From Limnobacter litoralis (GTDB lineage: Bacteria; Pseudomonadota; Gammaproteobacteria; Burkholderiales; Burkholderiaceae_B): 64,000 nucleotides of DNA. The notes under the pieces are model-generated. The model was not told the DNA's origin. It was given only the letters and a program-made list of their open reading frames with translations, and did not search any database. Shown here piece by piece: positions 23,497 to 34,066 of this stretch (positions are counted from its first letter, which is position 1; every line of letters begins with the position of its first letter). The position numbers and the translations under genes were made by a program. The DNA lies in contig NZ_BSOJ01000012.1 of NCBI RefSeq assembly GCF_030160455.1, positions 186,001 to 250,000 on the forward strand, in the 5' to 3' direction.

Positions 23497-23787
23497 TTAG
23501 CCTTCGATCACGCCCATGATGTCTTCTTCACGCATCACGAGCACTTCCTGACCGTCCACCTTGATGGACTGGCCTGCGTACTTGCCAAACAAGACGCGCT
23601 GACCGACTTTGACGTCCATCGGAATGATTTTTCCGCTGTCGTCGCGCTTGCCTGGGCCAACAGCCAGAATTTCGCCTTGGTCCGGCTTTTCGGCTGCGCT
23701 GTCAGGAATCACGATGCCAGAGGATGTCTTGCGCTCACTTTCAAGACGCTTCACGATCACGCGATCATGCAACGGACGAATGTTCAT
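23497..23787 (-). CDS. groS: Co-chaperonin GroES (10 kDa)
   Basis: Lid of the GroEL chamber. The start at 23787 gives the standard 96-residue protein [18 protein letters not shown], with AGGAG eight bases upstream. A GTG nine bases further upstream would sit on the ribosome binding site and is rejected. The mobile loop [14 protein letters not shown] is intact. First gene of the operon. Confidence 0.99.
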
Positions 23788-23847
23788 GGATTTCACTCCT
23801 AAGTAATTGTGTGTGAATGCTTTTGTTGGATACTGACCAGCAAGTTG

Positions 23848-23921: not shown

Positions 23922-24941
23922 TCAGAGATTTTTACGACATTGCGTGGCGGTCAGTCCGGTCCAGCGTTTGAAGGCCTGCGAAAAACTTGAAAGGTCGGAA
24001 AATCCCAGGGTTTCTCCAATTTCAGCCATGGTGATTGACTTGTTCTGAAGCATTTCCAGCGCCATCTCGCGTCGGGTTGCAGCGCAGATGTCCCGGTAGC
24101 TGGTGCCTTCTTCCGACAAGCGTCTTCGGAATGTGCGTTCCGACAAGTGAAGCATGCGGGCCATGGTCGGTAGGTCGGGGCATCCGACACCGGGCACTCT
24201 GAGGTATTGGCGAACGCGTTCACTCGTTGTTGCCGTTTGTAGCCGCCTTTGAATCAGTTCAGTGCAAAGTTGCTCGCACATGGCCACCGTCATCGGGTTG
24301 GCTTGCGGAAGTGGGTAATCCAGAAGGGTCGAAGACATTAAGATTTGATTGCGTGCGCATCCAAATGTCAGCGGGTATTCAGGCCATTCAGGCTGGTGTT
24401 TTTGCGGGTAGTCGTCAAAAGCCAGTTTGCGGGTGCGAAATTCGATTCGTTCTATTCCTTCGGCTTTGGCGGTCAATTCATGCAACAGATTCAGCGCTGC
24501 TGCCATGTCCCTTTCAATCAAAAACTGAGTCAGCACCGGGTCAAGTTCAGGTTCGCCAAAGGTCAGCGTGCCCCCGTTGGCGTTTTCGCTGAATCCGATG
24601 AGGGAAAACGCGAAAGTCAGCTGAATGAACCGCAGCGCCAGTTTAACGGCGTCTTTCAGCGTGGCGCTGCTAATCAATCCGTAGCCCCACAAGCCAAATG
24701 AAGACAAGTGGTAACAGCCCCCCACCTCAAAGCCAAGGCCGTTGTGTCCAAGTGCGCGAATCAGGTTTTGTACCACCCGCAATTCCTGACCGGCAGACAC
24801 CTCAAGGTGCATCAGTTCGAGTTGGCTGCTGCTGACGCCACTACCCGCCAGCATCTTGTCGGCTTCAAGTCCTTTCAGTTGTGCGAATTTGACGAGCACT
24901 GCAATGCTGGCCACGCTGCGCCTGAAATCCCAGAAGTGCAT
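23922..24941 (-). CDS. AraC-family transcriptional regulator
   Basis: DNA-binding regulator of 339 residues. The N-terminal ~200 residues match the arabinose-binding-like domain of the group that includes OruR/ArgR-type and hydrocarbon or carnitine regulators. The C-terminal ~100 residues hold two helix-turn-helix motifs (PTMARMLHLSERTFRRRLSE and ITMAEIGETLGFSDLSSFSQ) ending in FKRWTG. It is divergent from the GMC oxidoreductase operon and so is its likely activator; the inducer is unknown. No strong ribosome binding site precedes the ATG. Confidence 0.93.
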   Translation of the reverse strand: MHFWDFRRSVASIAVLVKFAQLKGLEADKMLAGSGVSSSQLELMHLEVSAGQELRVVQNLIRALGHNGLGFEVGGCYHLSSFGLWGYGLISSATLKDAVKLALRFIQLTFAFSLIGFSENANGGTLTFGEPELDPVLTQFLIERDMAAALNLLHELTAKAEGIERIEFRTRKLAFDDYPQKHQPEWPEYPLTFGCARNQILMSSTLLDYPLPQANPMTVAMCEQLCTELIQRRLQTATTSERVRQYLRVPGVGCPDLPTMARMLHLSERTFRRRLSEEGTSYRDICAATRREMALEMLQNKSITMAEIGETLGFSDLSSFSQAFKRWTGLTATQCRKNL

Positions 24942-25028
24942 TATGTGTTTGTGTAAATTGGCCTGTGTTGGCCTAAATTCTAAAGTGATTGTCCTTTTCT
25001 GTCATGGGTTTATTGCGCGGGTCTGCGA

Positions 25029-25034
25029 TATGAT
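25029..25034 (+). promoter_or_regulatory. Possible activator-dependent promoter of the GMC operon
   Basis: A TATGAT hexamer lies 61 bp before the oxidoreductase start, and no acceptable -35 hexamer is present at 16-18 bp. That pattern is common where an AraC-type activator recruits polymerase. The 153-bp gap has no clear long direct repeat that I can name as the operator. Confidence 0.35.
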
Positions 25035-25094
25035 GTTAACGAGTGTAAATAAAAACAAGATCGACACTGACCAATTCACAATGGAGACAAGACA

Positions 25095-26765
25095 ATGAGA
25101 CAAGTATTCGATTACGTCGTAGTGGGTGGTGGTTCCGGCGGGTGTGTGATGGCCGGGCGACTCAGTGAAGACCCGTCGGTCAGTGTCTGTGTGCTGGAGG
25201 CCGGTGGCGGCGGCAACAGTGCGATCATCAACACGCCGGCAGGCGCGGTCGCAATGCTGCCCACGAAGCTGAACAACTGGGCTTTTGAGACCACGCCGCA
25301 ATCGGGTTTGAATGGTCGCAAGGGTTATCAGCCCCGCGGTAAAGCGCTGGGTGGGTCGTCCGCAGTGAATGCCATGGTTTATATCCGCGGTCAAAAGCAG
25401 GATTACGACCATTGGGCCGCCCTGGGCAACGCTGGCTGGAGTTACGACGAGGTGTTGCCTTATTTCAAACTGTCCGAATCCAATGAGCGGATTCACAATG
25501 AGTACCACGGACAACACGGCCCTTTGAGTGTCAGTGACTTGCGTACCGACAATCCATTTCAGCAGGATTACCTGGCCGCCGCGCGAGAAGCGGGCTATCC
25601 CGTCACTGACGATTTCAACGGAGCTGACCAGGAAGGCGTGGGCATCTACCAGGTGACCCAAAAACACGGTGAACGCTGGAGTGCGGCGCGTGCCTATTTG
25701 TTGCCCCACATGGACAACCGCGAAAACCTGGTGGTTCACACCCATGCGCTTGTTCAAAAAATCGAGTTTCAAGGCAAGCGGGCTGTGGCCGTGGAAGTGG
25801 AAATAAAGGGGCAGACCCATCGCATCGAAGCCACGCGGGAAATTATTTTGGCGGCGGGCGCTTTCCAGACGCCTCAACTTTTGATGGTTTCGGGTGTGGG
25901 CGATTCTTCAGAGCTGGCCAGTCAGGGTATTGAGTGTCGCCATCATCTGCCCGGTGTGGGTAAAAATCTGCACGACCATCCCGATTTTATTTTTGGCTAC
26001 AAGACACGCAGTACAGACAACCTGGGCGTGTCATTGAAAGGCAGCGTTCGCATGATTCGCGAAATGCTGCGCTACAAGCGCGAAAGACGCGGCATGTTGA
26101 GCAGCAATTTTGCCGAAGGCGGCGGATTCCTGAAAACCGATCCGACTCTGGCTTCACCCGATGTTCAATTGCATTTCGTGATTGCCTTGGTGGATGATCA
26201 CGCCCGCAATTTCCACATGGGGCACGGTTTTTCTTGCCACGTGTGTCTGCTCCAACCGAAGAGTCGGGGTTCTGTCGGCATTCAGAGCAAATCCATGAAA
26301 GATGCGCCGGTCATCGACATCGGCTTTTATCAAAACCCTGAGGACCTTGAGGTCATGGTCAAGGGTTACAAACTGACTCAAAAGTTGATGCAGGCCCCCT
26401 CACTGGCCAAGCACGTGGTGGAAGATTCGTTCACCGCCAACGTCAAAACAGACGACGACATTCGTGAAATTCTGCGCAATCGCACAGACACGGTTTACCA
26501 CCCCGTAGGCACCTGCAAAATGGGCAATGATGACATGGCGGTTGTGGATGCCCAACTCCGCGTGCGCGGTCTGGAAGGGCTTCGCATCGTGGATTGCTCG
26601 GTCATGCCGACCGTGCCCAGCGGCAACACCAATGCGCCGATGATCATGATGGCTGAAAAAACAGTGGACATCATCCGCGGCTATTCACGCGTGGCTGCCG
26701 GCGCAGCCAACCCAACGAATGAGCAGCTTGAACAGGCTGAGCACCTGGCAGAGGTTTTGCCATGA
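25095..26765 (+). CDS. GMC-family FAD alcohol oxidoreductase
   Basis: Flavoenzyme of 556 residues that oxidises an alcohol to an aldehyde or ketone; closest in type to choline dehydrogenase and the aliphatic alcohol dehydrogenase AlkJ. Visible: FAD motif [18 protein letters not shown] signature 1 [18 protein letters not shown], signature 2 [15 protein letters not shown], and the C-terminal catalytic His in [10 protein letters not shown] with Asn in SGNTNAP. The ATG has GGAG nine bases upstream. The stop overlaps the following monooxygenase start by 4 bp, which points to joint action on one substrate. Substrate unknown. Confidence 0.92.
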
Positions 26766-29215
26766 CCCGGCAGGTCTATGAAGTCATCGTCATCGGCGGT
26801 GGCTTTGCAGGCCTCGGTTTGGCGATAGAACTCAAGAAACAGTACCGTCATAATTTTCTGGTGCTGGAGAAGGGTGGCGACGTGGGTGGCGTCTGGCGCG
26901 AAAACACCTATCCGGGTGCCGCCTGCGATGTGCCCTCGCACCTGTATTCTTTTTCCTATGAGTTGAACCCGAACTGGGCGCATGTGTTTGCCCGTCAACC
27001 CGAGATACTGCAGTATCAGCGACACTGTGCCGACAAATACGGGGTACGTGAACACTTTCGGTTTAACACCGAGGTGCAGGGGGCAGACTTCGACGAGGCT
27101 GAAAATCGATGGCAGGTGCACACTCGCGACGGTGAGGTTTTGTATTGTCGGGCTCTGGTGACTGCGATGGGGCAATTGAGTGCACCCAGCCTGCCAAATC
27201 TTCCGGGCATTGAGCGTTTTCAGGGGGACAGTTTTCACTCGGCGCGCTGGAATCACGATTGTGACCTGAAAGGCAAGCGAGTGGCCGTTGTCGGTACCGG
27301 GGCTTCCGCCATTCAGTTTGTACCGGCGATTGTAGATCAGGTGGACAAGCTGGTTTTGTTTCAGCGCAGTCCTTCGTACATCATGTCCAGGCCAGACAGG
27401 CCGCATACCCAGTTTGAAAAGGCAATGTGGTCGCGTTTCCCGGTGCTGATGAGGCTGCATCGCCTGCGCATTTATCTTCAGTACGAAAGTCGTGCATTGG
27501 CTTTTACCCGCTTTCGTGGCTTGATGAAATTCGCAGTGGAAAGACCGTTTAAGCGTTTGCTGGCCAAGTCCGTCAGTGACCCTCAGTTGCGCGAACAATT
27601 GGTGCCCAGCTATCCCGTGGGTTGCAAGCGCATTCTGTTGTCCAGCGACTATTTGACCGCGATGGCCAAGCCCAATTTGCAGTTGGTCACCGAATCGATC
27701 GCCGAGGTCTCGCCGTCGGGCATTCGAACCAAAGACGGCTCGGATTATCCGGTTGACGTGATTATTTACGGCACCGGTTTTGCCGCGACGCAATTCTTGA
27801 CCCCTTTGCGCATTCGCGGTCTGGACGGATTGGACCTGAATGCGGCTTGGTCGCAAGGGGCCAAGGCTCATCTGGGCATGTCGGTTCCCGGCTTTCCCAA
27901 TTTCTACATGTTGTATGGTCCCAACACCAACCTGGGTCACAATTCCATCATTTACATGTTGGAAAGCCAGATCAGGTACTTGACCCGCACCTTGGCGCGG
28001 CAGCGTGACACGCATGCCGACCGGGTGGAGGTGTCCGACTCTGTGTATCAGCGCTTTAACAAGTCCATACAGGCGGCGTTTTCCCACACCGTATGGAATG
28101 GGTGTAAAAGCTGGTATGTCGATGACAAGGGGCACAACAGCACGGGCTGGCCGGGGTTTACATTCACTTTTCGTGCATTGACCGCCCGTTCAAGCCTTCG
28201 AGAATTTCAATTCACGTCCGCGCGTCATCCACTGGTTCCTTCTGATTTGCCCGTCACCGTCCACGCGGCGGCTGACCCGCTCGACAACGCCTTGGCCGCC
28301 TTTTTCAGGGGTTTTTTGCGAGTTGCCTTTCGGGTGCCGGTGGGCAAGCCCTTTGGGGTTTGGGTGCAACGTGCGGTGGTTGGTTTGTTGTCACCCCTAA
28401 TGCCGGGTTGTTCTGGCGTGTTTCGTTACCGCGAAACACTGGCTGGCGTTCCGACGGGCATCACCGTACCCAGGGCAGGCGAGTCGGGCAAAGTCGTGTT
28501 GTATTTGCACGGGGGCGCCTATTGTCTTGGGTCGGCCTCCACACATCGCAGCATCACCTCGCGCCTGGCTGTGCACTCCGGTGCGGTGGTTTATACACCC
28601 AATTACAGGCTTGCACCTGAACATCCGTACCCGGCTCAAATAGAAGACGCGCTTGCCTGCTATCAGGCCTTGTTGGCCAAGGGCATTTCGCCTGCGCAAA
28701 TCACGGTGATGGGCGACTCGGCAGGGGGCGGTCTTGCAGTGGCACTTGCGCTTCAGCTGAAGGCGCTGGGCTTGCCACAGCCCGCTGGCTTGGGTTTGAT
28801 CTCCCCATTTGTCGATCCCGCCATGTCGGGTGAAAGCCTGCGCACCAAAGCCAACGAAGACCCGATGGTTCGACAGGGGTGGCTTGAGCAGGGCGCGGCT
28901 TGGCTGAAGGTGCCGCCTACCGCTCGATGTTTTTATCCCTTGGAGGAGAGCCTTGCTGGTTTGCCCCCCTTGTTCATTCAGGTTGGCGAACAGGAAATAC
29001 TGCTTTCCGATTCGCTCAGGCTGGCAGTCAAGGCCCGGCAGGACGGTGTGCCGTGCGAACTGAACTTGCACCAGCGCCGTTGGCATGTGTTTCATCTGCA
29101 GGCTTTTTACCTGTCGTCAGCGCGCAAGGCCATCCAGTCTCTGGCGATATTCGTTACTTATTCAAACAAAAACAAGCAGTACCAGGAAGAAACGGTCTGG
29201 AAAAAGGCCGCATGA
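26762..29215 (+). CDS. Fusion of Baeyer-Villiger-type flavin monooxygenase and alpha/beta-hydrolase
   Basis: An 817-residue, two-enzyme protein. Residues 1 to about 490 are a flavin monooxygenase: FAD motif GGGFAG (12-17), the Baeyer-Villiger-type fingerprint FQGDSFHSARWN (153-164; FxGxxxHxxxW intact, last residue Asn rather than Pro/Asp) and the NADPH motif GTGASA (178-183). Residues from about 550 are a hormone-sensitive-lipase-type esterase with oxyanion HGGA (583-586), nucleophile Ser653 in GDSAGG, likely Asp750 and His775. The monooxygenase would insert oxygen next to a carbonyl and the hydrolase would open the ester formed. AlmA-like long-chain alkane hydroxylation is an alternative for the first half. 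No frameshift joins the halves. Confidence 0.9.
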   Translation: MTRQVYEVIVIGGGFAGLGLAIELKKQYRHNFLVLEKGGDVGGVWRENTYPGAACDVPSHLYSFSYELNPNWAHVFARQPEILQYQRHCADKYGVREHFRFNTEVQGADFDEAENRWQVHTRDGEVLYCRALVTAMGQLSAPSLPNLPGIERFQGDSFHSARWNHDCDLKGKRVAVVGTGASAIQFVPAIVDQVDKLVLFQRSPSYIMSRPDRPHTQFEKAMWSRFPVLMRLHRLRIYLQYESRALAFTRFRGLMKFAVERPFKRLLAKSVSDPQLREQLVPSYPVGCKRILLSSDYLTAMAKPNLQLVTESIAEVSPSGIRTKDGSDYPVDVIIYGTGFAATQFLTPLRIRGLDGLDLNAAWSQGAKAHLGMSVPGFPNFYMLYGPNTNLGHNSIIYMLESQIRYLTRTLARQRDTHADRVEVSDSVYQRFNKSIQAAFSHTVWNGCKSWYVDDKGHNSTGWPGFTFTFRALTARSSLREFQFTSARHPLVPSDLPVTVHAAADPLDNALAAFFRGFLRVAFRVPVGKPFGVWVQRAVVGLLSPLMPGCSGVFRYRETLAGVPTGITVPRAGESGKVVLYLHGGAYCLGSASTHRSITSRLAVHSGAVVYTPNYRLAPEHPYPAQIEDALACYQALLAKGISPAQITVMGDSAGGGLAVALALQLKALGLPQPAGLGLISPFVDPAMSGESLRTKANEDPMVRQGWLEQGAAWLKVPPTARCFYPLEESLAGLPPLFIQVGEQEILLSDSLRLAVKARQDGVPCELNLHQRRWHVFHLQAFYLSSARKAIQSLAIFVTYSNKNKQYQEETVWKKAA

Positions 29216-29236
29216 CAAAACCACTAGGAGGATGAC

Positions 29237-30271
29237 ATGAAGACAGCAGTAAAAATGGGGGTGTTGACTCTGGCCTTGGCCAGCGGACCAGTCATGGCCA
29301 AGCAAGCCGTATGTGTGTACGACCTGCTCGGCACCACAGGCGACATTTACAACATGGCCAAAGACTGGGCATTGCCCGCCAAGGGTTGGGGGGCTGACGT
29401 TGAATTGGTCGGTTACACCGACGAACGGGTGGCCACTCAGGACTTCATCACTGGGAAGTGTGATGCGCTCATGGCCACTGGTTTCCGGACGCGCCAATTC
29501 AACCCCGTGGCCGCTTCAATTGACTCATTGGGTGCCTCTTCGGTCGTGAAAGACAACAAAGTGGACATCAATGCCAGTTACGAGGTTGTTCATCGGACCA
29601 TTCAGGTGTTTTCCTCTTCCGCCGCGGGCAAGCTGATGAAACGGGGCGATTATGAGGTTGCAGGCATCATTCCTTTCGGAACGGCTTTTCCGATTGTGAA
29701 TGACCGCAACATCAAAACGGTGGAAGGTCTGGCTGGGAAAAAGATTGCCGCATTCGATTACGACAAGGCCCAAGCCGTCATGATCCAAAAAATCGGCGCT
29801 CAGCCGGTGTCTGCCGACATCACCAACTTCGCGGCCAAGTTCAACAACGGTTCCGTGGACATGATTGCTGCACCTGCGCTGGCTTACAAGCCGCTTGAAC
29901 TGTATCGGGGCATCGGCACCAAGGGTGCAATCAACCGCTTTCCAATTCTGATTCTCACCTATCAGATGATTGTTCGCGATTCCAAATTTCCAGCCGGCTT
30001 TGCTGAAAAGTCCAGAACTTACTGGCTGGGACAATTTGGTCGAGCCCGCGATCTGATCAAGAAGGCCGAGGCAGAAATTCCAGCCGGAACCTGGAGCGAT
30101 CTCACCCCAGAGAACATGCTCAAGTACACCGTCATGTTGCGGGAATCGCGAGAAGACATCGCCAACCAGGGGATCTACAACAAAACGGGTTTGCGGATCA
30201 TGAAGAAGATTCGTTGTGGCGTAAACCCCGCCAGCGCGGAATGCGCCACCAACTCGGAAACCTGGCAGTAA
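29237..30271 (+). CDS. AdeT-like periplasmic solute-binding protein
   Basis: Secreted protein of 344 residues with signal peptide ending GPVMA and mature start KQAVCVYDLLGTTGD. It resembles the putative solute-binding family that includes Acinetobacter AdeT, which is distantly related to TRAP binding proteins; YTDERVATQDFITGKCDA and a pair of C-terminal cysteines (RCG, ECA) are visible. AdeT was once linked to aminoglycoside efflux, but nothing here supports resistance. As third gene of the operon, 21 bp after the fusion enzyme, it more likely binds the substrate or a product. No membrane transporter is adjacent. Confidence 0.75.
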   Translation: MKTAVKMGVLTLALASGPVMAKQAVCVYDLLGTTGDIYNMAKDWALPAKGWGADVELVGYTDERVATQDFITGKCDALMATGFRTRQFNPVAASIDSLGASSVVKDNKVDINASYEVVHRTIQVFSSSAAGKLMKRGDYEVAGIIPFGTAFPIVNDRNIKTVEGLAGKKIAAFDYDKAQAVMIQKIGAQPVSADITNFAAKFNNGSVDMIAAPALAYKPLELYRGIGTKGAINRFPILILTYQMIVRDSKFPAGFAEKSRTYWLGQFGRARDLIKKAEAEIPAGTWSDLTPENMLKYTVMLRESREDIANQGIYNKTGLRIMKKIRCGVNPASAECATNSETWQ

Positions 30272-30279
30272 AATCGGGC

Positions 30280-30310
30280 AGTGAAAACCGGTGTGTTACC
30301 GGTTTTCACT
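30280..30310. terminator. 12-bp hairpin between convergent adeT-like and dctP genes
   Basis: AGTGAAAACCGG (30280-30291), a seven-base loop and CCGGTTTTCACT (30299-30310) pair perfectly. No long T-run follows on either strand. The right arm encodes the last codons of dctP and its stop codon lies in the loop. Termination or 3'-end protection of both transcripts is inferred. Confidence 0.7.
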
Positions 30311-31303
30311 CAATGATTTGATTTGCTCAATCAAATTGCGGTCAATGCGACCTTCCATCTTGACTTGAACCGGTGCCAGGGCTTTACGCCAAGTCTCACG
30401 TTCCTGAGGGGTCAGATCGACCACTTGAACACCCGGTGATTTTCGGATGGCGTCCAGCGCTGCCTTGTTCAGTTTGGCGGCTTCGTCGTTGTTTTTCTGG
30501 GTTGCATCCGCAATGCATTGTTCCAGAATGACGCGCAGGTCCCCTGGCAGGCTCGTCCAGAATTTCTTGTTGACGATCACCGCGTAACCCAGATAACCAT
30601 GGTTGGTGACTGCCACGTATTTCTGTACTTCCTGCATTCGCTGGGTGTAAAAGTTGGAAGGGGGGTTTTCAGTGCCGTCCACCAGCCCACTTTGCAGCGC
30701 CGGGTAAACATCCGAAAACGCCAGAGGCACCGAAATGGCGCCCAGTTCGTTCATTTGGGCTTCCAGCGTTCTGGAAGGCTGAATGCGCATCCGCTTGTTT
30801 TTAAGGTCTGAAGGCAGGCGAAGTGGGCTGTTGCTGCTCATGACCTTAAAACCATTGTCCCAGAATGCAAGACCCAGTATGCCGCGAGACGACAGTTGAT
30901 CCAGCAGGGCATGACCAATTTCACCTTGGGTGACCTCGTGGAGCACTTTCTCGCTTGGGAAGATGTAGGGCAGATCGAAAACCTCGTAATCTTTCAATCC
31001 CAACTGCCCGAACTTGGCCAGCGAGGGTGCCAGCATTTGCACTGCACCCAGTTGCAAGGCTTCAAGCTCATCTTTGTCTTTGTACAGCGAGGCGTTGGGG
31101 TAAATATCGACGCGAACTCGTCCTTTGGTTCGCATTTCTGCCAATCGCTTGAATTCGAGTGCGGCAATTCCTTTGGGTGTGTTTGGAGCCACCACATGGC
31201 TGAACTTGATCACGATTGGGGCAGCTTGTGCGAGGCTGGTGGCCAGCACACTGACAACGAGAACCAAAATGGTCTTGACCAAAGACCTTCCAGGGCAAAC
31301 CAT
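30296..31303 (-). CDS. dctP: TRAP-type solute-binding protein, DctP family
   Basis: Periplasmic binding protein of 335 residues, the substrate-capture subunit of TRAP transporters for C4-dicarboxylates and similar acids. The ATG at 31303 has GGAAG upstream and gives a proper signal peptide (VLVVSVLATSLAQA). The mature part begins IVIKFSHVVAPNTPKG and contains MRIQPSRTLEAQMNELGA, GLVDGTENPP and FYTQRMQEVQKY, all typical of DctP. A start 105 bp further upstream would remove the signal peptide from the N terminus and is rejected. The membrane subunits DctQ and DctM are absent from the neighbourhood. Confidence 0.92.
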   Translation of the reverse strand: MVCPGRSLVKTILVLVVSVLATSLAQAAPIVIKFSHVVAPNTPKGIAALEFKRLAEMRTKGRVRVDIYPNASLYKDKDELEALQLGAVQMLAPSLAKFGQLGLKDYEVFDLPYIFPSEKVLHEVTQGEIGHALLDQLSSRGILGLAFWDNGFKVMSSNSPLRLPSDLKNKRMRIQPSRTLEAQMNELGAISVPLAFSDVYPALQSGLVDGTENPPSNFYTQRMQEVQKYVAVTNHGYLGYAVIVNKKFWTSLPGDLRVILEQCIADATQKNNDEAAKLNKAALDAIRKSPGVQVVDLTPQERETWRKALAPVQVKMEGRIDRNLIEQIKSLSENR

Positions 31304-31360
31304 AAATACATCTTCCAATTTCAAGGGCAAGAGCTTAAAACTTACGCGAGCGCCGTGTTT

Positions 31361-31373
31361 CCCACATTGTGGG
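31361..31373. promoter_or_regulatory. Palindrome in the dctP/dctS intergenic region, possible operator
   Basis: CCCACATTGTGGG, two six-base arms around a central T, lies in the 119-bp gap between the divergent binding-protein and sensor-kinase genes. A response-regulator site is a reasonable guess; a second related sequence, CCACATCCAGTGTG, follows at 31377-31390. Confidence 0.4.
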
Positions 31374-31422
31374 TTTCCACATCCAGTGTGTTGGGGTTTG
31401 AAATTCATGGCAAGATTTCAGC

Positions 31423-33405
31423 ATGATCCAGTTCAACTACCACCACCCCACACTCAAGAAAATACAGCGCCGCCAGGCCGTTCGGTTCGGCGTGCCTGCA
31501 CTTGTTTTTGTACTCCTGATGGGGCTGCTCGTGGCTGCTGTCTATTACGCGCAGCAAGACGAACGCGAGGGCAACCAGGCCAAGTTGATTGCAGACACTC
31601 TGTGGGCCAGGCAAAACATCCAGTTTCAAATGGAAAGCCTCACCACACCACTGCATGCATTGGCCAATGATTCGCTGATCTATTATTCCAGCAAACTGCC
31701 CCTTGGAGTCAGTCAGCTCATCAAAAGTTCAGGCGAACTGATCGCCGTCTTCAAAGACAAAGATCTTGAAACGGTCAGTTACAACCAGAACCAGCTCAAA
31801 GACGTTGACCTGCAGCCCATCGTCAATCAGATCAAAACTGAAGTCGACCAACGCGTCGATTCACGTTTGGGCGGATTTATTGGTCCCTTTGTCCGACATG
31901 GCCGCCCCTACATTGCCTCGGTGGGCATCGGCTTGCACGGCAGCTCGGTGATTGTCGGCATCATTGATCTGGGTCTACTGCTCGACAAAGAATTGCCCTG
32001 GTGGTTCGCACAAGACAATGAAGTAGAGCTTCTGGATGCCGGGGGGTCTACGCTGGTTCGGCAGGTGAAGGGCAAGTCCGGGCTCGGCATTTATGTGCAC
32101 ACCACCTCGCTGGATCTTGGTGGTTTGCCTTTTCAGTTGCGGGTCAACAGTGGCAGTGAGGGTCCAAAGCTGTTCAACTATGGTATCACCGCAGCGTTGG
32201 CATTTCTGCTGGTGTTGTTGGCGATCAGCTTTTTCATGCTTTGGCGAGACTCCCGAAAACGCCTGCAAATTGAGGCCAGTCTCGAAGAAGAACGACAGTT
32301 CCGCCAATCCATGCAAGACTCCATGGCGGTCGGTCTGCGGGTGTGGGGGCTGGACGGCGTCATTCGGTATGTCAATCCGGCGTTTTGTAAAATGGTGGGT
32401 TATGCGCCCGAGGAATTGATTGATCGTCCTCAACCTTTGCCGTATTGGCCGGTCAACAACACCGAGAGTTACCGTCAGCTTGTCGAGCGGGTCATGGCAG
32501 GCAATGCACCACCAGAAGGGTTTGAAACGGTCTATCACCACAAAGACGGCCGCCTGATTGATGTGCTGATTGTAGAGGCTCCCTTAAAGGACACACATGG
32601 CAACCAAGTGGGTTGGATGAGCTCTGTGATTGACATCACAGATCGCAAAAAATCGGAAGCACTAGTCGCCGAGCAGCGCGAAAAGCTGCAGGCAGCGTCC
32701 CGGTTTGCGCTTGTGGGCGAAGTGGCATCCAACATTGCCCATGAATTGAACCAACCCCTGGCCACCATGGTGTCCTTTGCCCAGGCAGGCATGAATCTAA
32801 GTCAGCGGGGTGGCAACGTTGAAATGTATGTTCAGTTGTTCGAAAAGCTGAGGGACCAAGCTCAACGCGCGGGTCGAGTGGTCGGTTCTGTGCAGAACCT
32901 GGTCCGAAAACGCAAACCCATGCGTGAGCAGGTTCGTCTGGGCGATATCATTGAATCTGTTCGGTTCAGCGTCAATTCACTGGCGGTCAAATACCGCGTG
33001 AATCTGCATTTTGATTTGGGTGATCCTGCACTTGTTCTTTCGATTGATCGAATCATGGTGGAGCAGGCTTTGGTCAATCTGGTCAAGAATGCATCCGAGG
33101 CTTTTACGGCCTCTCAGAGAATTCGGAACGTCTGGGTTTTGGCGCGGGTCCGAGAGGGTTGTTTCGAGTTGGCTGTCCGCGATGACGGACCAGGGTTCAG
33201 CTTGAACAACACTGAGCGAATGTTTGAAGCATTGGTGTCAACCAAGCCAGACGGGCTTGGCTTGGGGCTCAGTCTATGCCGTTCCGTGGCCGAGGCGCAC
33301 GGCGGGCGTCTGAAGGCCGAGCCAGTTCCCACCGGTGGAACATGCTTCACCATGGATTTGCCGATGGCACTTATAGAGAAGGTTGAGCTAGTGGATGTCC
33401 GATAG
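31423..33405 (+). CDS. dctS: DctS-like sensor histidine kinase
   Basis: Membrane sensor kinase of 660 residues: helix near 22-45, a periplasmic sensor domain to about 250, a second helix (ALAFLLVLLAISFFMLW), a PAS domain with YVNPAFCKMVGYAPEEL, then a HisKA/HATPase core with the phosphorylated His440 in NIAHELNQPLATM, the N box LVKNASEAF and DDGPGF. The architecture matches DctS of Rhodobacter, which with DctR controls TRAP dicarboxylate uptake. The divergent dctP gene supports this. It overlaps the regulator gene by 11 bp. Confidence 0.88.
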   Translation: MIQFNYHHPTLKKIQRRQAVRFGVPALVFVLLMGLLVAAVYYAQQDEREGNQAKLIADTLWARQNIQFQMESLTTPLHALANDSLIYYSSKLPLGVSQLIKSSGELIAVFKDKDLETVSYNQNQLKDVDLQPIVNQIKTEVDQRVDSRLGGFIGPFVRHGRPYIASVGIGLHGSSVIVGIIDLGLLLDKELPWWFAQDNEVELLDAGGSTLVRQVKGKSGLGIYVHTTSLDLGGLPFQLRVNSGSEGPKLFNYGITAALAFLLVLLAISFFMLWRDSRKRLQIEASLEEERQFRQSMQDSMAVGLRVWGLDGVIRYVNPAFCKMVGYAPEELIDRPQPLPYWPVNNTESYRQLVERVMAGNAPPEGFETVYHHKDGRLIDVLIVEAPLKDTHGNQVGWMSSVIDITDRKKSEALVAEQREKLQAASRFALVGEVASNIAHELNQPLATMVSFAQAGMNLSQRGGNVEMYVQLFEKLRDQAQRAGRVVGSVQNLVRKRKPMREQVRLGDIIESVRFSVNSLAVKYRVNLHFDLGDPALVLSIDRIMVEQALVNLVKNASEAFTASQRIRNVWVLARVREGCFELAVRDDGPGFSLNNTERMFEALVSTKPDGLGLGLSLCRSVAEAHGGRLKAEPVPTGGTCFTMDLPMALIEKVELVDVR

Positions 33406-34066
33406 AGCGCAAGACCCCTTGTTACTGGTGCTTGATGACGATCACGATCTTCGTGAGGGTTTGACCTGGATGTTTGAAACCTCGGACATTCACGTCAAAG
33501 GCTACGGCAATTTTCAGGCATTCAGCGCCGATCTCGATTCAGTTTTTCAGTCGGGCAAAGAATTGTGCTTGTTGCTGGACCTTCGCATGCCCGACATGTC
33601 AGGACTGGAAGTGTTCCGGTGGCTGAAAAACCAGGGATACAGTCTTGACAGAATGCCTGTGATTTTCTTGACCGGTCACGGTGACATTTCTACCGCCGTC
33701 GAGGCGGTAAAAGACGGCGCGTTCGATTTTTACGAAAAACCCACCACCGATGAACGGCTGATTGAACGGGTTCGCGAGGCTTTGAGAAAGTCTCGGGAGT
33801 TTCTGGACAATCAATCTGTGTTGAAGCAGTGGTCAGATCGAATCAACAAACTCTCTCCGCGAGAACGTCAGGTCATGCTGTATGTCGCCAAAGGCAAGCT
33901 CAACAAAGTGATCGCCGCTGAACTCGATATTTCCATGCGCACAGTCGAAGTGCACCGTGCCAATGTTTTTGACAAATTGAAAGTTCGTTCAGCCGCCGAA
34001 TTGGCCACATTGCTCAGCAAGCTGGGTGATCTGTTTGGTTTTGATCACTCGGATGGACTGGAATAA
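33395..34066 (+). CDS. dctR: DctR/FixJ-like response regulator
   Basis: Two-domain regulator of 223 residues. The receiver has the acidic pocket LDDDHD, phospho-acceptor Asp62 in LLLDLRMPD, Thr93 and Lys115. The output domain is a LuxR/NarL-type helix-turn-helix with LSPRERQVMLYVAKG and ISMRTVEVHRANVFDKL. It shares the operon with the kinase and probably activates the divergent dctP. Its last 22 bp overlap the end of the convergent OmpA-like gene. Confidence 0.92.
   Translation: MSDRAQDPLLLVLDDDHDLREGLTWMFETSDIHVKGYGNFQAFSADLDSVFQSGKELCLLLDLRMPDMSGLEVFRWLKNQGYSLDRMPVIFLTGHGDISTAVEAVKDGAFDFYEKPTTDERLIERVREALRKSREFLDNQSVLKQWSDRINKLSPRERQVMLYVAKGKLNKVIAAELDISMRTVEVHRANVFDKLKVRSAAELATLLSKLGDLFGFDHSDGLE

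Follow-up and report, generated by a model that had tools for sequence, protein, structure and literature searches.

What does a four-gene block of Limnobacter litoralis do, in which an AraC-family regulator gene faces genes for a GMC alcohol oxidoreductase, a monooxygenase-hydrolase fusion and an AdeT-like binding protein, and is it one conserved unit? The initial annotation had proposed a four-part route under AraC control, from alcohol to carbonyl, from carbonyl to ester, and from ester to acid plus alcohol. We have examined the block within the 64,000-nucleotide stretch of DNA that contains it, hereafter called the window, and in related loci of other bacteria.

Gene content of the block and its fusion protein

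Open reading frames and Pfam domains agree with the proposed arrangement of the four genes. The regulator (339 aa, Arabinose_bd and HTH_18 domains) is encoded on the minus strand at positions 23922-24941, and the GMC flavoprotein alcohol oxidoreductase (556 aa, GMC_oxred_N and GMC_oxred_C) on the plus strand at 25095-26765, the two genes being divergent with 153 bp between them. They are followed on the plus strand by the fusion gene (26762-29215, 817 aa, Pyr_redox_3/FMO-like and Abhydrolase_3) and by the gene of the AdeT1_2 binding protein (29237-30271, 344 aa); the start codons of the four ORFs are mechanical first starts. The 4-bp and 21-bp junctions are as first described: the GMC gene shares its last 4 bp (26762-26765) with the start of the fusion gene, and a 21-bp gap separates the fusion from AdeT, with the strong Shine-Dalgarno sequence AGGAGG immediately 5' of the AdeT start. 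The left edge of the block is groES (23497-23796, minus strand), and the right edge is a gene for a DctP-type TRAP binding protein (30296-31408, minus strand), which, over 30296-34066, is accompanied by genes for a sensor kinase, divergent from it, and for a FixJ-like response regulator.

Where the AdeT and DctP genes converge, there is a perfect 11-bp inverted repeat (30281-30309), part of a longer 82% inverted pair, which may act as terminator for both genes; the scan for T-run terminators did not pick it up. Neither terminators (15 vs 10.9 +/- 3.4 in shuffles) nor sigma-70 promoters (5 vs 4.2 +/- 2.3) were clearly more numerous than in shuffled sequence. Against NCBIfam, the four proteins gave matches below cut-off only, among them that of the GMC protein to the choline-dehydrogenase subfamily (596.6 bits, cut-off 605). 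This protein contains both GMC_N and GMC_C domains, the FAD motif GGGSGG, a C-terminal HPVGTCKM and the C-terminal catalytic His and, judged by eye, has no signal peptide.

By its sequence, the monooxygenase half of the fusion (26762-28243, plus strand, residues 1 to ~494) is of the type I Baeyer-Villiger (BVMO) kind, and the hydrolase half (Abhydrolase_3, 28496-29095, plus strand, residues 579-778) is an HSL-type (family IV) esterase. The BVMO half contains the Rossmann motifs GxGFxG and GTGASA and, of the fingerprint FxGxxxHxxxW(P/D), the residues F153-G155-H159-W163; at the last position, where P or D is expected and most homologues have D, the window departs from it with N. In an alignment with phenylacetone monooxygenase (1w4x), a type I BVMO of 28-29% identity that has no esterase domain, residues D56 and R290 (hand-counted) stand at the positions of D66 and R337. 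In the esterase half we find the HGGA oxyanion motif, GDSAGG (S653), E745 and H775, the last two of which align with those of esterase 9vmr, and catalytic roles may be assigned to S653, E745 and H775. D56, R290, HGGA, S653, E745 and H775 are invariant in 23/23 aligned fusions, a redundant set made of the window and 22 of the 27 loci described below, with five Pseudomonas sequences and a 98% identical copy of the window's own fusion, among others.

An AlphaFold2 model of the fusion is of moderate quality (pLDDT 76.9, pTM 0.75), with weak stretches such as residues 442-465 and 618-625, and the 50 Foldseek matches listed for it are all BVMOs, at 24-30% identity; the esterase half is thus assigned from sequence and not from structure matches. 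The closest solved enzymes are the phenylacetone, OTEMO, steroid and cyclohexanone monooxygenases, which favours a fusion that forms and opens lactones of cyclic terpenoid or alicyclic ketones, and not one that cleaves linear chains. However, these are simply the solved members of the family, at 24-30% identity, and the relatives of AdeT and GMC occur in AlkB-like/FadL settings (see below), so that we regard lactone opening as rather unlikely.

The explanation that we put forward instead, and hold to be fairly probable, is that the block is an acquired, inducible operon that cleaves aliphatic ketones, probably hydrophobic, medium- or long-chain, and possibly branched or terpenoid. The BVMO half, with FAD, NADPH and O2, would convert the ketone to an ester, and the esterase half would hydrolyse this ester to an acid and an alcohol. 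The GMC enzyme would oxidise a pathway alcohol, either the entering secondary or the released primary alcohol, or both; AraC would bind a DNA element and answer to a pathway compound; and AdeT would have joined the operon in this lineage as a periplasmic carrier of the hydrophobic substrate.

Distribution of fused loci and the operator-like element

A contig scan confirmed 95 stretches, the best 80 of which correspond to 79 loci, and a single ORF with both halves is present in 24 of these loci. The ORFs were examined in 46 of the 79; for the remaining 33 we relied on the range of the match, and in no case did this extend over most of both halves. A plasmid search matched 1237 records, 81 of them at >=80% coverage; from the 30 listed, two of three plasmid loci were counted as fused, the third being a second B. 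glumae copy. With one further fused locus from 369 class genomes, the total comes to at least 27 (24 + 2 + 1), from records titled as Burkholderiales, Pseudomonas, Solimonas, Hydrocarboniphaga, Rhizobiales and others. Two duplicates were not counted: L133, which covers the place of L038, and L116, from the second B. glumae plasmid. The window's species is represented by L031 (98% identical), from a MAG that carries the title Herminiimonas sp., probably in error, and whose block and groEL agree with the window at 98-100% identity. Among 399 order genomes (E <= 1e-100, at most two candidates scored in each), 28 had a match, full length only in the window's own.

Related arrangements without a single fused chain were also found. 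L230 (8408-11272) of genome G152, one of the 28 matched order genomes, was left out of the 27 as a fusion that is either split or broken: it combines a related BVMO (53%) and an AraC gene (41%) with an esterase ORF (48%) that lies in an overlapping frame. BVMO and esterase are separate neighbours in L053, L057, L231 and L232 (667 bp apart), and an esterase ORF lies ahead of a more distant BVMO in L062, L072, L075-L084, L086 and L087. On the B. glumae plasmids (L111, L116), ALDH-GMC-fusion operons adjoin IS66 genes, and L111 is also near mercury-resistance genes.

An AraC gene accompanies the fusion in 21 of the 27 loci (in 20 inside 4.5 kb, in L032 at 4.9 kb), the orthologues in other genera being 35-47% identical to that of the window. 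A GMC orthologue (>=44%) is adjacent in 19/27, standing 3' of the fusion in L043-L045, and an aldehyde dehydrogenase (ALDH) gene is present in eight. Between loci, the pairwise identities of AraC, of GMC and of the fusion vary together (matrix r 0.63-0.95, Mantel p 0.0002-0.005, nine dereplicated loci). AdeT, in contrast, is found in one of the 27, that of the window's own species. The proposed four-part unit is thus borne out in part, and not for AdeT, whose rarity beside the fusion is what the initial annotation had named as an outcome that would speak against it; an ancient and conserved unit of four genes was rejected on the same count. The block is small and apparently mobile, and one B. 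glumae plasmid copy lies near IS66 and mer genes, as might be expected of a detoxification or signal-quenching operon that removes a ketone or ester without feeding on it; yet ALDH in 8/27 loci suggests carbon use, nothing in the loci viewed ties the block to resistance, and we find such a role very improbable.

The gaps between AraC and operon have TTGKCCYRAATNMTAAA in common. The element consists of two TTGKCC half-sites spaced 21 bp, 5' of the operon, and in the window it occupies 24968-25012 (plus strand), with half-sites TTGGCCT (24968-24974) and TTGTCCT (24989-24995). Half-sites spaced 21 bp fit AraC-type operators, and a putative operator conserved between regulator and operon is what an AraC-type operon is expected to have. 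The exact pattern occurs in 21 of the 273 loci collected, all of them fusion loci or pieces of the window, and the window contains one exact match among three at <=2 mismatches (0.36 expected). A single exact copy of the 17-bp pattern is present in the organism's own genome; a regulon scan there gave 20 more matches, each with two mismatches, and this total of 21 compares with 13 for the reversed control, so that no clear second target emerges in that genome.

The element was further evaluated with a 45-bp weight matrix, the tested genus being left out each time. All 17 training sites were the best place in their locus, with scores of 25.0-56.3, and the fused AraC loci outside the training set scored 19.4 (L038), 31.9 (L041), 27.2 (L044) and 21.8 (L045), at sites beside AraC. 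The background maximum was 14.9 among 239 other loci (1.93 Mb in all, with many overlaps and with several loci from the same genome), against 19-56 for the element sites, and the top two of this background, L230 and L137, both belong to G152, itself a related locus. The element is present in 21/21 fused loci with AraC and in 0/6 without it, namely L043 (which has another AraC, 28%), L046, L047, L048 (at a contig end), L055 and L229. Regulation of the operon, which had been read from the facing AraC gene, thus gains a candidate DNA site that recurs, across several genera, in the fused loci with AraC; this putative operator-like element ahead of the operon, tracking AraC among fused loci, is new here.

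Outside the fused loci the picture is mixed. In L051, which has a BVMO without fused esterase and no AraC-like gene inside 4.5 kb, an element scoring 36.8 lies at the BVMO gene start (8837), and in L085, with a BVMO and a more distant AraC, a site at the BVMO gene scores 16.2. The element is absent from the BVMO loci L056, L057 and L231, which have AraC at 32-36%. A second, weak place (score 16.5) was seen in Pseudomonas L042, L050 and L054.

The AdeT binding protein and the origin of the block

AdeT matches Pfam AdeT1_2 (PF19582) with 273.5 bits (cut-off 27), a family named after drug efflux. Its N terminus is signal-peptide-like by eye, ending in PVMA, and the protein is weakly TRAP-P-like (NCBIfam TRAP_S1, 23.5, below the cut-off of 50). 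It has no PDB relative by sequence or by profile, and its single-sequence structure prediction reached pLDDT 32. Four AdeT1_2 genes are present in the organism's own genome, one of which (L136, contig C9, 6045-11058) lies between the genes of a lipoprotein and of a 909-aa DctM-domain protein; this C9 set of lipoprotein, AdeT and DctM might form a transporter of three parts that works with AdeT-type binding proteins.

The nearest relatives of the window's AdeT within the genus are 68-73% identical, and an AraC-like gene is adjacent in eight of the nine loci viewed. In four of the nine (L216, L218, L219 and L221), AdeT is followed by FadL and then by a lipoprotein, and these genes adjoin AraC, ALDH, GMC and a ferredoxin reductase-FA_desaturase fusion protein, the neighbour families being named from one scanned member of each. 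The cluster is thus laid out as AraC / AdeT-FadL-lipoprotein beside AraC / ALDH-GMC-(ferredoxin reductase + FA_desaturase/AlkB-like). FA_desaturase is the Pfam family to which AlkB and XylM belong; none of the tested FA_desaturase ('AlkB-like') neighbours was named alkane monooxygenase by NCBIfam.

A known system with which AdeT may be compared is TPAT (TatT-TatP-TatQM), for which, in the accessible part of the report, uptake of hydrophobic molecules is suggested and which among proteobacteria is found mostly in hydrocarbon degraders (PMC5812351). Compared with that account, the likeness lies in the weakly TRAP-P-like AdeT and in the paralogue between lipoprotein and DctM-domain protein, whereas the lipoprotein has no match to the TatT profile and the block of the window has no membrane subunit. 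AdeT as a TPAT P-subunit acting with TatT is not supported: the organism's own genome has no TatT (PF16811) match, and lipoprotein c11 reaches a probability of 6% against the TatT profile (five sequences). Because this test was negative, AdeT is not filed under TPAT. Lipoprotein c11 has no Pfam, NCBIfam or PDB match, and a draw of 119 other order genomes gave none either; a QM membrane subunit was not found among the genes of the block, and the C9 paralogue alone has a DctM domain next to it.

The surroundings of the block are informative about its history. Fourteen of 15 genus relatives lack the fusion (G002, at 85%, and G010, at 65%, being incomplete genomes) and only G015 has it. In 11/15, groES is next to or near dctP, directly in G014 and G002 and with ~1 kb between them in nine; the four of these nine intervals that were read have one gene in common, AhpC/TSA-like by its scanned member. 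Of the other four relatives, two (G005 and G013) are interrupted here by contig ends, G010 has no groES match, and the neighbour in G015 is a different one. The window has the four genes at this groES-dctP place. The presence of AdeT with the fusion in 1/27 loci could mean that it lies there by chance, outside the operon. Nevertheless, it is on the same strand, after a 21-bp gap, with a strong Shine-Dalgarno sequence and an inverted repeat 3' of it, and the 11 genus relatives that keep the groES-dctP interval have no AdeT in it, which makes a chance neighbour improbable. A lineage-specific addition to the operon is therefore the reading retained here for AdeT.

The window and L038 are 57% identical in the fusion, 72% in GMC and 47% in AraC, while the GroEL of G015, taken as one genome with L038, is 92% identical to the window's over the part seen. 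Given this discrepancy, separate acquisition of the block by the window and by L038/G015 would be the simplest reading. The GC content shows no sharp step at the block edges.

Order of the steps, substrate and known systems

The proposed sequence of alcohol, carbonyl, ester and acid plus alcohol is supported by both predicted activities of the fusion; its strict order is unproven, as eight of the 27 loci are without a nearby GMC orthologue (among them L048, at a contig end) and eight have ALDH. These same counts leave room for a GMC enzyme whose substrate may be the primary alcohol that the fusion releases, in place of the entering alcohol or in addition to it. In its full form, that alternative makes the ketone the true substrate, the primary alcohol released by the fusion being oxidised to an acid by GMC, with ALDH where present. 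AlkJ and AlkH oxidise alcohol to acid likewise, and relatives of the GMC enzyme are known for primary alcohols (AlkJ, choline).

Six loci with AraC, element and fusion have no GMC orthologue (Solimonas L034, L035, L040 and L041, Hydrocarboniphaga L036, Variovorax L058), and in L032, L033, L037, L052 and L111 ALDH is directly 5' of GMC, both of which argue for a downstream GMC step. GMC orthologues (68-72%) are moreover present outside fusion operons in 11 genus genomes, the G005 copy being broken, and in five of the six fetched (one scanned) an AlkB-like gene lies inside 2 kb of these fusion-less copies, which points the same way. Against it, 11 of the 19 GMC loci, the window included, have no adjoining ALDH, and in L040 a divergent GMC-domain protein directly follows the fusion, which weakens the case of this locus as one without GMC. 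We see the downstream role as quite possible, if somewhat short of an even chance. What the substrate is, and where in the route the GMC step falls, is our inference, and the mechanism proposed above accommodates either alcohol. The AdeT and GMC relatives adjoin FadL and AlkB-like genes, which suggests hydrophobic aliphatic substrates; of the candidates first listed (secondary or long-chain alcohols, terpenoids, sterol-like ketones), it is their hydrophobic character that receives this indirect support. The block would thus probably serve for feeding on greasy alcohols or ketones.

Pathways of this kind have been met before. In the secondary alcohol pathway of Pseudomonas fluorescens DSM 50106, an alcohol dehydrogenase, a BVMO and an esterase, encoded by separate genes, reportedly act in series (Kirschner et al. 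2007), whereas the window has a fused BVMO-esterase and a GMC-type enzyme. The sad cluster found in bacteria that use alkanes (Yin et al. 2022, as described in PMC12753306 and PMC10045523) combines secondary-alcohol oxidation, the BVMO SadD and esterase action, giving primary alcohol and acid. As described there, it has two esterases (SadA, SadB) and SadC, while the window has one esterase, fused to the BVMO, so that the two are likened by chemistry; the GMC flavoprotein, AraC with its conserved element and AdeT are features of the window unlike that description. In Thalassolituus oleivorans, the BVMO TOL_0709 and the esterase TOL_0906 are up on n-C28 (PMC6304351), and the part of the report available to us infers the same sub-terminal chemistry for genes that are far apart by number and not fused. 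The predicted chemistry of the block matches published sub-terminal oxidation (PMC6304351, PMC12753306, PMC10045523). Four features set the block apart from the published clusters: the fusion, the GMC enzyme, a conserved putative operator and the added AdeT. Among titles and abstract openings of the open-licence literature, we found no natural BVMO-esterase fusion and no GMC/BVMO/AraC operon.

A broader view, which we offer as speculative and rather doubtful, is that of a mobile ketone-cleavage regulon defined by its operator, in which the ester would be passed on inside the BVMO-esterase and to which, in this lineage, AdeT1_2 proteins would have been recruited to carry hydrocarbon-derived compounds in the periplasm. 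A BVMO-esterase that occurs naturally as one chain, with a promoter element, provides a testable case of intramolecular ester hand-over, and fusion and element together are a candidate tool in biocatalysis and in the sensing of ketones. Furthermore, the element allows a regulon search in other genomes, and the setting of AdeT brings a concrete hypothesis for a family of binding proteins whose name suggests drug efflux.
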